A stretch of 64,000 bases of DNA from Arthrobacter sp. MYb229 (lineage in GTDB: Bacteria; Actinomycetota; Actinomycetes; Actinomycetales; Micrococcaceae). The stretch lies in contig NZ_PCPS01000002.1 of NCBI RefSeq assembly GCF_002975405.1, positions 248,001 through 312,000 on the forward strand, given 5' to 3'. Each line of letters opens with the position of its first letter. Position 1 is the stretch's first letter. A program made the position numbers and the translations under genes. The notes under the pieces were generated by a model. It was not told the origin of the DNA. It searched no databases and worked only from the letters and a program-made list of their open reading frames with translations. This document shows positions 40,183 to 60,553 of this stretch, piece after piece.

Positions 40183-42030
<1,848 letters not shown>

Positions 42031-46192: not shown

Positions 46193-47284
46193 ATGGCAAT
46201 CAATGACAAATCGGTACAGAGTGAACAACGCACAGCGCTCGTGGTTGGAGCGACGGGCATCGCAGGATCTGCACTTGTGGAGACCCTCGCCACCGCAGGA
46301 TGGTCAGTTATTGCCTTGTCCCGCAGGCCGGGGGCTGATCGCGACGGAGTGCGCTGGCTTTCCGCGGACCTGACTTCGGCTGAATCAGTGGCGGCCGTTC
46401 TCGCTCCTGAACATCCGACGCACATCTTCTTCACCGCTTGGTCGCGGCAGGACTCTGAGGAAGAGAACATCACTGTCAACGCAGGCATGTTGCGAGTTCT
46501 CTTGGCCGCGCTGCGGGACAAGCCGGTTGCCCATGTGGCTCTGATGACGGGGCTAAAGCACTACCTTGGCCCTTTCGAAGCCTACGCCGCCGGCGAGATG
46601 CCGGATACTCCGTTCCATGAAGAAGAACCGCGGCTGCCCGTTCGGAACTTCTACTACGCGCAAGAAGACGAGTTGTTCGCCGCGGCCGCCGAGCAGGGGT
46701 TCACCTGGTCCGTGCACCGCGCGCACACCGTCATTGGGCATGCTGTGGGAAACGCAATGAATATGGGGCTCACGCTCGCCACGCAAGCAACGCTGTGCAA
46801 GGAAACGGGAGAACCGTTCGTCTTCCCGGGCTCAGAAATGCAATGGAACGGGCTGACTGACATGACAGACGCCGGTCTGCTTGCAGAGCATATGCTCTGG
46901 GCTTCGACGACCCCTGGTGCCGCCAATGAGGCCTTTAATATCGTCAATGGCGATGTCTTTCGGTGGCGCTGGATGTGGCCGAAGCTCGCCGCGCACTTTG
47001 GAGTTGAATGGGAAGGCTACCAACAGGCGCCTCGGCCTCTCGAGCAAGCCATGAGCGGCCGGGAAAGGCAGTGGAGTGAGTTGGCGCTGAAGCACGGGTT
47101 GGCGGAACAAAAGCTGGATCGCATGGCTTCGTGGTGGCACACCGACGGTGACCTAGGGCGAAACATAGAAGTGGTGGCAGACATGGGGAAGAGCAGGGTG
47201 GCTGGCTTTACCGGGTATCGTCGAACATTTGATGCTTTCGTGGCGCTGTTCGACCGCTATCGCGTGGATCAACTCATCCCCTAA
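46193..47284 (+). CDS. PRISE-type short-chain reductase (SDR75E, progesterone 5-beta-reductase/iridoid synthase-like)
   Basis: 363 aa. Rossmann motif 'ALVVGATGIAGSALVETLATAGW' (about 16-38), 'ALSRRPG', 'HIFFTAWSRQDSEEENITVNAGML', 'MTGLKHYLGPFEAYA', the PRISE catalytic 'NFYYAQEDELF' (Tyr), and 'WSVHRAHTVIGHAVGNAMNMG'. The family reduces activated C=C bonds of enones. There is almost no ribosome site at the ATG, so the mRNA could be leaderless. Native substrate in bacteria unknown. Confidence 0.88.
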   Translation: MAINDKSVQSEQRTALVVGATGIAGSALVETLATAGWSVIALSRRPGADRDGVRWLSADLTSAESVAAVLAPEHPTHIFFTAWSRQDSEEENITVNAGMLRVLLAALRDKPVAHVALMTGLKHYLGPFEAYAAGEMPDTPFHEEEPRLPVRNFYYAQEDELFAAAAEQGFTWSVHRAHTVIGHAVGNAMNMGLTLATQATLCKETGEPFVFPGSEMQWNGLTDMTDAGLLAEHMLWASTTPGAANEAFNIVNGDVFRWRWMWPKLAAHFGVEWEGYQQAPRPLEQAMSGRERQWSELALKHGLAEQKLDRMASWWHTDGDLGRNIEVVADMGKSRVAGFTGYRRTFDAFVALFDRYRVDQLIP

Positions 47285-47890
47285 GTAGCGTCTATCTCTG
47301 GGCCAGAGAGACGAGCGTCGCCGCAACGGCTTAGCCGTCCACGTCGAGAATAAACAGGCGCAGCAGCTGGGAATGCGCTGTTATCGAAGCATTTACCCGG
47401 CCTGGGCGGGGGATCAAAGCCTAGTGAAAACGGAATCTCCGTAGGTGGGAATTTTCGTGGAATTGCGGTCCGGCGTCGGGGCGTAGTTCTCCAGCGGAGA
47501 AATATGGCCGTTGAGCTGAGGGCGGGTCATTCCCAGTTTTGTGCAAAGAACTGGGAATGACGTACGTAAAACTCGGCACTATGCGCTCTTGACGTCCGAA
47601 GAGGTTCTCGTAGCGATGGTCAATGACGAGCGAGATGCACAGCATCAGAACGAGTTTACGGAGTCGAGCGATGATCATTTCACCGAAGGCCACCCGTTCA
47701 TGACGAAACTGTAGCCGGAGCAGGTTTGGGTACTTAACTTCACTGGAATTCCAGGTTCCATCGGCTGAGCAAGAACATGAAAGTTATTGTTAACCCAGTG
47801 GATCATCTGGCTTAACTAGAACGTTCGCAAGAGTCACTTCCATGAATCGGTCAGGGAGAAGCTGAGTCTTTTGGGCTCCTACTTAAGTAT
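47285..47890. other. gene-free region with a hairpin and a possible coding remnant
   Basis: A perfect 13-bp inverted repeat, GTCATTCCCAGTT / AACTGGGAATGAC, lies at 47526-47538 and 47549-47561. The frame 47589-47714 encodes 41 protein-like residues, opening with Leu-Thr-Ser-Glu-Glu and ending at Thr-Lys-Leu then TAG; it includes 'NDERDAQHQNEFTESSDDHF'. It starts at TTG with no ribosome site and may be a gene remnant. The region turns clearly AT-rich towards its right end. Confidence 0.4.
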
Positions 47891-47892
47891 TA

Positions 47893-47921
47893 TTGACACG
47901 GTGAAATTTATTTGATTTATG
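47893..47921 (+). promoter_or_regulatory. promoter-like -35/-10 pair upstream of the micro-gene
   Basis: Consensus TTGACA (47893-47898), 17 bp, then TTTATG (47916-47921) in AT-rich DNA. A transcript from here would have a leader of about 145 nt before the ATG at 48075. A closer promoter cannot be excluded. Confidence 0.45.
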
Positions 47922-48074
47922 CTGTTTACCTGAGGTTAGTTAGATATTCAAAGAATAAAACTCGTAATAATTGAGAATATTCACCGCAGGAAACTCGACC
48001 ACTGTTAGTTTTATTTACATCAGCACCCGTTGATAACGTGGACTTTTATTCACATCGCACTTTCTGGAGGAATC

Positions 48075-48137
48075 ATGGATCTGGTCAATACTCTTTTGGA
48101 GATCATTCTCGGCCTTCTCGGTGGGCTCGGCGGCTAA
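48075..48137 (+). CDS. 20-aa hydrophobic, Gly/Leu-rich micro-peptide
   Basis: MDLVNTLLEIILGLLGGLGG, then TAA. A strong ribosome site (CTGGAGG) lies 5 nt before the ATG and a perfect 19-bp terminator with a T-run begins 24 nt after the stop, so the gene has its own expression signals. The peptide has only two charged residues (Asp2, Glu9), both acidic, a helical Leu/Ile core and a GG-rich C-terminus, with no signal peptide or Cys. It is shorter than normal annotation cut-offs. It resembles in general character leaderless bacteriocins, phenol-soluble-modulin-like peptides or small membrane toxins, but I do not recognise a family. No immunity or export gene is adjacent. The plus-strand frame that overlaps it in another register has no such signals. 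Confidence 0.7.
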   Translation: MDLVNTLLEIILGLLGGLGG

Positions 48138-48161
48138 AGCCCCGCAATGTAGTACTTTTTG

Positions 48162-48202
48162 ATAATGTCCCGCCGAAGGCAAAGCCTTCGGCGGGACATT
48201 AT
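48162..48202 (+). terminator. strong intrinsic terminator of the micro-gene
   Basis: Perfect 19-bp stem (ATAATGTCCCGCCGAAGGC, loop AAA) followed by TTTTTTATTTATG. The T-run is only on the plus strand, which assigns it to the micro-peptide transcript. Confidence 0.92.
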
Positions 48203-48209
48203 TTTTTAT

Positions 48210-48509
48210 TTATGCATTGAAGAGACGGGTTAGTGGTTCGGGCTGAGGAGTCTTGGCCTCGACTCGACGCAATTCTTTATGCGGCGCCATCGGCACAATA
48301 GCGCGTTCCTGACGGGAATGTTCGGGCCAGATTCCTAGCTTGCCCGAGGGGGAATGGCTGTAGGATCCAGAGCATCCTTGATCTTTGGCCGTAGTCGGTG
48401 CGCAGTGTTGCGTTGAAAACAAATCCACCGAATCTGCGATCCACGTGCCTGCAGCATCCAGCAGCTCTGCATGCAGGGGATGGGTATGGCGCACGCCGCC
48501 GATCGTCAA
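48210..48509 (-). CDS. doubtful hypothetical protein (99 aa)
   Basis: Open frame with somewhat protein-like text ('HTHPLHAELLDAAGTWIADS', 'APHKELRRVEAKTPQPEPL') but no recognised family, no good ribosome site and a stop just 8 bp from the opposing terminator. Could be a decayed gene or chance. The interval 48510-48753 to its right shows no other gene. Confidence 0.25.
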   Translation of the reverse strand: MTIGGVRHTHPLHAELLDAAGTWIADSVDLFSTQHCAPTTAKDQGCSGSYSHSPSGKLGIWPEHSRQERAIVPMAPHKELRRVEAKTPQPEPLTRLFNA

Positions 48510-48753
48510 TGCGCTGGGAACTCAGGATGCGGCTCTACTTGCGGGGGCCGTGCAGTGAGCGAACCGGCGCCTACTCGGTTGCTCGGCCTGGGGCGGGCCT
48601 CCATGGTCCTCCGCTACTGGGGGCGTGGTTCGGTCCGAGGCTTATCCACCGCCGAGTCCAGAGATCTCATGCCAGGGGTGGACTTGGAGTACGCACAGTT
48701 ACACCCGTCCGCTGAGGACGTGGCGCCACAGGCTTTCATAGGCTTGTGTTGTG

Positions 48754-49290
48754 ATGAAGAAAAAACTTGTTCCCTTGATAGCACTTGCCATTCCGACCAC
48801 TTTGCTGCTGACCGGATGTGACGTCAGTCAGCTAACCGAAGACAAATATGAGCACTCGGCCTCCAAAACCGCAAAGACTTCCGCAGAAGGCGTAGCTTCC
48901 GGGTTGCTTCCCAGCTGGGCTCCCAATGGTGGAACCGACGTCCGCCTGGAGCAACGCAGCACCGGGCACGAGCGAATTTTCACCATGGACTACTCAGGTG
49001 AACTTCCAAGCGGCAAATGCGAGCCGCTGGCTAACACCGGCGTTCCCAGCGCCAAGGAACTGGAAAAAGGCTACGCCGCCGATTCGCGGACCAAGGACAT
49101 GGCACCAGAGGATTTCGTGACCTACCGAACCCTCGAAGCCGACTGGTGGCCGGCGGACGCTGAATTGCAGAGCACCGCGCTCTGTGGACGTTGGTGGGTG
49201 CACCAAGATGCAGGCAAGCTGTACGCTTTCGCGCCAGATGTTGCCAGCGTGGCCGAGGCCATCGTCAAGGAGCGCGCTGAGGCCGAGTAA
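48754..49290 (+). CDS. secreted lipoprotein of unknown function
   Basis: 178 aa. The signal peptide MKKKLVPLIALAIPTTLLL ends in the lipobox LTGC (Cys at about 22), so the protein is anchored on the outer face of the membrane. The rest is a compact domain with two further Cys ('GKCEPLA', 'TALCGRWWVH') that may form a disulfide, and Trp-rich 'LEADWWPADAELQ'. A GTG immediately before the ATG is an alternative start. I know no family for it. It stands alone, convergent with map. Confidence 0.8.
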   Translation: MKKKLVPLIALAIPTTLLLTGCDVSQLTEDKYEHSASKTAKTSAEGVASGLLPSWAPNGGTDVRLEQRSTGHERIFTMDYSGELPSGKCEPLANTGVPSAKELEKGYAADSRTKDMAPEDFVTYRTLEADWWPADAELQSTALCGRWWVHQDAGKLYAFAPDVASVAEAIVKERAEAE

Positions 49291-60462: not shown

Positions 60463-60551
60463 CAACCATCCAGAGCGGCTGAGAGACCTGGCTCGACGAC
60501 GCCGCAGCAAGCCTGCATTCGGCAGCTAGTGCTAACGCCAGGTTCGATGGA
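60463..60551 (+). promoter_or_regulatory. SAM-I (S-box) riboswitch
   Basis: Closing helix CCATC / GATGG (60466-60470, 60546-60550). Inside are, in order, CCAGAGCGGCUGAGAGACC, GGCUCGACGACGCCGCAGCAA, a CUGC-AUUCG-GCAG hairpin and the highly conserved GUGCUAACGCCAGG, which together define the SAM-I aptamer. The usual GGG...CCC pair is replaced by GAG...CUC, a compensatory change. It precedes two flavoprotein genes and should switch them off when S-adenosylmethionine is abundant. Confidence 0.9.
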
Positions 60552-60553
60552 TC

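Follow-up and report, generated by a model that had tools for sequence, protein, structure and literature searches.

To our knowledge, staphylococci are the main source of the alpha-type surface-active peptides described so far. The alpha-type phenol-soluble modulins (PSMs) of Staphylococcus (Pfam PF17063) carry no signal peptide, form one amphipathic helix, and are encoded by small genes that are easily missed. Other described peptides of this size range are the leaderless bacteriocins, which are short hydrophobic helices made without a leader (the known ones are mostly cationic and longer than the peptide described here), and the short hydrophobic type I toxins such as Ibs, which have about 20 residues and are encoded by small units in more than one copy. 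Alpha-type modulins measure 20-25 residues (PMC12607899). Passages of the same report describe LspU of Staphylococcus aureus, a newly found small amphipathic peptide that was called PSM-like on the grounds of its sequence and helix, is encoded in the 5' region of a lipase mRNA, and was shown experimentally to be exported via the PSM transporters (PMC12607899). For Glutamicibacter mysorens, antimicrobial peptides have been described as LC-MS compounds of less than 1 kDa, in passages that contain no peptide sequence (PMC9982118).

This study followed up a predicted micro-gene for a 20-residue hydrophobic peptide in a stretch of 64,000 nucleotides from Arthrobacter sp. MYb229 (hereafter, the window), which has a GC content of 61% and belongs to a genome of 4.0 Mb. 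Its conservation indicates a real, easily overlooked gene that has its own conserved control region and is present in a few related bacteria of soil and cheese type. The peptide resembles the alpha-type modulins in length, in having one amphipathic helix and no signal peptide, in the small size of its gene, and in a sub-threshold profile match of two relatives. It differs from them in that it occurs in another phylum, scores below the family cut-off, is purely acidic in the window, and has a Gly-rich C-terminal end, and in that each copy is solitary, with an upstream region and a hairpin of its own. With the leaderless bacteriocins it shares the absence of a leader, the short hydrophobic helix, and a box that also precedes pairs resembling bacteriocin and immunity genes by eye; unlike them, it has no recognised immunity gene among the ten immediate neighbours of its five copies (two of the ten being of unknown family). 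Size and the occurrence of small units in more than one copy are shared with type I toxins such as Ibs, but the peptide is amphipathic rather than uniformly hydrophobic. It is PSM-like in the same sense as LspU, which in the passages cited is encoded in an mRNA 5' region, whereas the gene described here is free-standing. In the open-licence literature searched, no such peptide was reported for Glutamicibacter or Arthrobacter.

The peptide gene in the window

All parts that had been claimed for the micro-gene, namely, a TTGACA hexamer, an AT-rich leader, a GGAGG ribosome-binding site, a 20-codon frame, and a 19-bp stem with a T-run, were found (Table 1). When both strands of the window were scanned for a ribosome site followed by 12-40 codons, a perfect hairpin of at least 10 bp and a T-run, the unit at 48075 was the sole match. 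No such unit occurred in 2000 first-order Markov resamples of the surrounding 1466-nt stretch (47285-48750); perfect hairpins reached at most 10 bp in 200 resamples, as compared to the 19 bp observed. A looser terminator scan on its own was not above chance (one found, 1.6 or 0.6 expected). There was no Rfam match at the unit; elsewhere in the window, Rfam identified a TPP riboswitch (41923-42030, minus strand) and a SAM riboswitch (60463-60553, plus strand).

Table 1. Features of the peptide gene in the window, and its copies in other genomes of the genus.
Feature	Sequence	Position	Strand	Description
Box TCCTACTTAAGTATTATTGACA	Window	47877..47898	+	Conserved; dyad TAC-N4-GTA abutting a -35-like TTGACA hexamer (47893-47898)
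CGTAATA element CGTAATAATTGAGAATATTCA	Window	47963..47983	+	Inverted repeat in two relatives
Extended -10-like element TGTTAGTTT	Window	48003..48011	+	TGCTAGATT in three relatives; putative promoter role
Short hairpin ATCAGC-ACCC-GTTGAT	Window	48019..48034	+	At the predicted RNA 5' end
Ribosome-binding site GGAGG	Window	48066..48070	+	4 nt before ATG
Peptide gene	Window	48075..48137	+	ATG at 48075, 20 codons, TAA at 48135-48137; encodes MDLVNTLLEIILGLLGGLGG
Terminator-like hairpin	Window	48162..48202	+	Perfect 19-bp stem, 3-nt loop, followed by TTTTTATTTA (T-run)
Peptide copy	G016	3350985		MDLINTILELLASLLGGLGG
Peptide copy	G016	3411402		MELINTLLEIIKGLLGGLGG
Peptide copy	G007			MELINAILEILKGLLGGLGG
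Peptide copy	G006			17 residues, GTG start; (V)DALLELILGLLGGLGG
Fifth regulatory copy	G016	3629695-3629873		RNA-model E = 0.025; box, CGTAATA element, -10 and ribosome site present

Copies in related genomes and conservation of the reading frame

Searching 38 genomes at the DNA level yielded two matches, both in one genome (G016) and both coinciding with the peptide frame, and a peptide profile was then built from three, later five, peptides. In a sample of 18 genomes of the genus (one genome per species), the profile found five copies in four genomes, i.e., the window copy and four copies in three others. The GGLGG end is conserved among the copies. The purely acidic charge that had been pointed out holds for the window copy and for two of the four full-length copies in all, but position 12 is Lys in two of the four relatives.

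Equal change at all codon positions had been named beforehand as the pattern that would speak against a translated frame. Instead, pairwise comparison of the four full-length copies (six pairs) gave 34, 5 and 61 differences at codon positions 1, 2 and 3, which shows that selection acts on the peptide. Among the changed codons, 49 were synonymous and 29 nonsynonymous. Variable columns were distributed as 10, 1 and 16 (of 19 for each position), with P = 9e-5 for the third position. Mean identity was 0.71 within the frame versus 0.38 directly after it. The conservation of the frame in five copies and the mostly third-position change in the four full-length ones, together with the amphipathic helix and the sub-threshold PSMalpha matches described below, support the claim that the surrounding signals serve a translated peptide.

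The gene is sporadic and narrowly distributed. The profile found the peptide in 4 of 395 family genomes (4 of 295 in an earlier sample), all within the genus, and only in its own genome among 396 order genomes and among 396 phylum genomes (these samples overlap). No match to one relative was found in plasmids and phages by tblastn, a weak test for 20 residues, and a related-locus search of genome contigs and viral contigs gave none that was confirmed, 20 residues hardly reaching the E limit. Several weak matches were dropped as chance, namely, a 27-bp match in G023, profile matches in G002 and a second one in G000 (E 0.83 and 0.94), and RNA-model matches in G009 and one in G016 (E 0.34 and 0.65).

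Peptide properties and family assignment

The peptide helix is strongly amphipathic. In the four full-length copies, the computed hydrophobic moment of residues 1-18 was 0.40-0.48 with a maximum at 100-104 degrees, and was reached by at most 0.001 of 5000 shuffles; the G006 peptide has a weaker moment of 0.28, reached by 0.019 of shuffles. In length (20-25 residues) and, judged by the computed moment, in its amphipathic alpha-helix, the peptide agrees with the description of alpha-type modulins. It is not a phenol-soluble modulin by membership: PSMalpha (PF17063) was the sole library family matched, two of the four peptides scanned did so at E = 0.0022 and 0.07, and the best score, that of a relative, was 18.4 bits as compared to the gathering cut-off of 23. 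The window peptide and the G016a relative matched no Pfam family, the G006 peptide was too short for the Pfam scan, and none of three reversed peptides matched PSMalpha. NCBIfam gave no match for the four peptides and PHROGs and PADLOC gave nothing, while two PDB rows at E 3.3 were dropped. The family is thus not named in any of the libraries searched, namely, Rfam, Pfam, NCBIfam, PHROGs, PADLOC and PDB, a result limited to a collection of one genome per species and to open-licence literature.

The upstream control region and the predicted RNA

Upstream of the frame, four copies share islands of 0.71-0.89 identity between stretches of 0.28-0.49. The box with TTGACA (47879-47898) has an identity of 0.86, followed by a stretch of 0.49; the CGTAATA element 0.73, followed by 0.28; the extended -10 (TGnTAGwTT) 0.89; the 5' hairpin 0.73, followed by 0.43; and the segment from the ribosome site to the ATG 0.85. 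The CGTAATA element starts exactly 40 nt before TGnTAGwTT in all five regulatory copies, while merely 7-18 of the 33 nt of the spacer between them are identical in pairwise comparisons. Because the extended -10-like element is conserved, the transcript may start near 48018, about 7 nt after it, and the AT-rich 'leader' may be mostly promoter. Given such a start, the centre of the CGTAATA element would fall near -44, where activators usually bind, and the ATCAGC-ACCC-GTTGAT hairpin would be the first structure of the RNA. The TTGACA hexamer is conserved, yet the promoter scans report no promoter that uses it; it may represent a second promoter or belong to a binding site.

All 6 pairs of the 5' hairpin are kept in four of four copies. 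Two of the pairs show a one-sided change and none a double change, so that covariation lends the hairpin weak support; it was not found in the divergent G016 copy, nor did it appear when the G006 copy was folded. Of a stem predicted to cover the ribosome site, all five pairs stand in one of four copies, the other three breaking one or two. A hairpin of -30 to -37 kcal/mol lies within 170 nt after the stop in five of five copies, not all with a T-run, a count that has no shuffled control.

The fifth regulatory copy, in G016, has a diverged 18-residue frame (MNTITALFDFRKEHMNGL) without the amphipathic pattern (0.414 of shuffles reach its moment) and a post-stop hairpin of -19 kcal/mol; it reads as a copy that has either decayed or been re-purposed. 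No match to the box was found for the G006 copy. A search for the second element (CGTAATATTYGCGAATATTGG, up to 3 mismatches) gave three matches, two at the G016 peptide copies and the third in G008.

The box elsewhere and its possible regulator

With up to 3 mismatches, the box consensus was found at 13 places in 9 of the 18 genomes of the genus, and at none in a reversed control. Four of the places are the peptide genes that supplied the consensus (the window box has 3 mismatches to it), one is the diverged copy, and the other eight precede small frames whose secreted or membrane character was judged by eye. At these eight places, the box contains TTTACA or something close to it, with TAnnnT 17-18 nt further (by eye). 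In G002 and G012, the box precedes a 167-residue Gly/Ala-rich protein with a signal-peptide-like start, followed by small membrane-like frames. This protein, frame 1579-2082 of loci L048 and L052 in box-strand numbering, has no family match, and the arrangement resembles bacteriocin and immunity genes by eye. Membrane-like proteins of 71 to 93 residues follow the box in G013, G009 and G007 (two). In G005, the box precedes a secreted-type frame that contains a stop, and G017 has a comparable place; a 141-residue membrane-like protein follows in each case, as read at loci L049 and L051 (with the stop in L051). Seven box-neighbour proteins had nothing over the cut-off in Pfam or NCBIfam.

With up to 2 mismatches, which excludes the window copy, 9 of 295 family genomes have the box. 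Eight of these belong to the genus; in the ninth, it precedes a relative of the G005/G017 system by eye. A box-preceded secreted-type frame in another genus (locus L088) resembles those of L049 and L051 by eye. Among genome contigs there were seven box matches, two in Glutamicibacter and five in other phyla, the latter presumed to be chance matches; contig NZ_BJNY01000008.1 of Glutamicibacter uratoxydans NBRC 15515 carries the same box. Viral contigs gave one match, in sequence that is unrelated by eye.

The regulator of the box is a separate question, compatible with any reading of the peptide. The dyad recalls BlaI/CopY operators, and BlaI-family genes are present in all 18 genomes of the genus, but it is quite improbable that the box is a BlaI-type operator. 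Autoregulation is usual for this family, and the box is missing within 1.5 kb on either side of all 23 BlaI-family loci found (best score 12.2, as compared to 22.7-29.9 for the sites), on which ground BlaI was rejected as the box regulator.

Genomic surroundings

The five copies sit at unrelated places, with unrelated flanks. Their ten flanking gene calls belong, by Pfam, to epimerase-like, copper-type ATPase, pterin dehydratase, ArsR-type regulator, GNAT, cytidylyltransferase, isochorismatase and acyltransferase families, with 2 of the 10 without any family; the gene caller accepts frames of at least 40 codons, and smaller neighbours would be missed. No exporter was found among these ten immediate neighbours. 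By eye, a pair of genes resembling those of an ABC transporter is located about 5 kb away from the G007 copy (L019, 13085-14878).

The DNA on both sides of the micro-gene had been described as free of genes. By the gene calls made here, this holds for 47285-48753, save for a weak 41-codon call at 47589. The stretch 48296-48385 (minus strand), however, resembles the 3' end of a FAD-linked oxidase gene, and the gene-free flank is thus partly the product of gene decay. The matching place in G009, G001 and G011 lies about 10 kb from a lipoprotein gene; of the two loci read (L034 in G009, L035 in G011), the L034 frame matches PF02913 (E = 8.7e-12). By self-match, the gene-free stretch also contains another inverted repeat, CATTCCCAGTT...AACTGGGAATG (47526-47561).

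Discussion

The reading that we prefer, to which we give about an even chance, is that of a leaderless amphipathic surface-active peptide, in the manner of an alpha-type modulin or a leaderless bacteriocin, with its own regulated promoter. The bacteriocin and immunity-like appearance, by eye, of some box-preceded small genes was counted in favour. Counted against it were the purely acidic charge of two of the four full-length peptides, PSMalpha matches under 23 bits with the window peptide unmatched, and the presence of the gene in only 4 of the 18 genomes, one of which (G006) lacks the box and the 5' hairpin and has the weaker moment; in addition, such a helix could also fit a membrane partner inside the cell.

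We regard as rather unlikely an intracellular membrane peptide, i.e., a type I toxin or a small peptide that regulates a membrane protein, encoded by a short RNA under tight control. It would fit the size and hydrophobicity, the free-standing units with strong hairpins, the two copies in one genome, and the third G016 regulatory copy, the frame of which has lost the amphipathic pattern, as a dispensable toxin could leave behind. Against it, the helix is amphipathic, not uniformly hydrophobic, and the ribosome site lies outside any conserved stem. A scan for an antisense antitoxin found no minus-strand promoter-like site in 47200-48800, which carries little weight as the same scan misses the gene's own putative promoter. 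A secreted signal perceived through a cellular receptor would also fit the short, hydrophobic and sporadic peptide with its conserved GGLGG end, but it is improbable: no receptor-like family was found among the ten immediate neighbours (an ArsR-type regulator gene adjoins one copy), and an amphipathic pattern along most of the helix would exceed what a signal needs. A regulatory RNA with the short frame as an incidental part or as a leader, to which the stable predicted fold (z = -4.1, probably mostly the terminator) and the conserved 5' hairpin might point, is very improbable given the third-position bias, the conserved ribosome site, start and stop, the drop in identity after the frame, the distance to the next gene call (48754), and the absence of any compensatory pair in four sequences, so that equal codon change with conserved pairing, as expected of an RNA without coding role, was not observed.

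If the peptide is indeed surface-active, the product of the free-standing gene would be an amphipathic alpha-helix of about 2 kDa that ribosomes make without a leader. Transcription from the extended -10 near 48003 would be turned on by one or more regulators that recognise the TCCTAC-N4-GTA box and the CGTAATA element, and the resulting short RNA, which starts with a hairpin, would then be translated. The first Met is retained where Asp or Glu follows, and would probably be kept here. The peptide would lie flat on membranes or leave the cell as is, serving in spreading, in the biofilm matrix, or in membrane damage to competitors.

More tentatively, and with more doubt, a PSM-like family may exist in Actinobacteria that is run by a previously undescribed TCCTAC-N4-GTA/TTKACA box regulon, in which amphipathic peptides, bacteriocin-like secreted proteins and small membrane proteins of one genus would form a single competition or surface programme. 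If an unrelated genus of Actinobacteria has a set of such peptides, be it through convergence or through distant relationship, one would have to ask how often gene callers miss peptides of this kind, and the shared box would offer a handle for finding more unannotated small genes, as well as their regulator.
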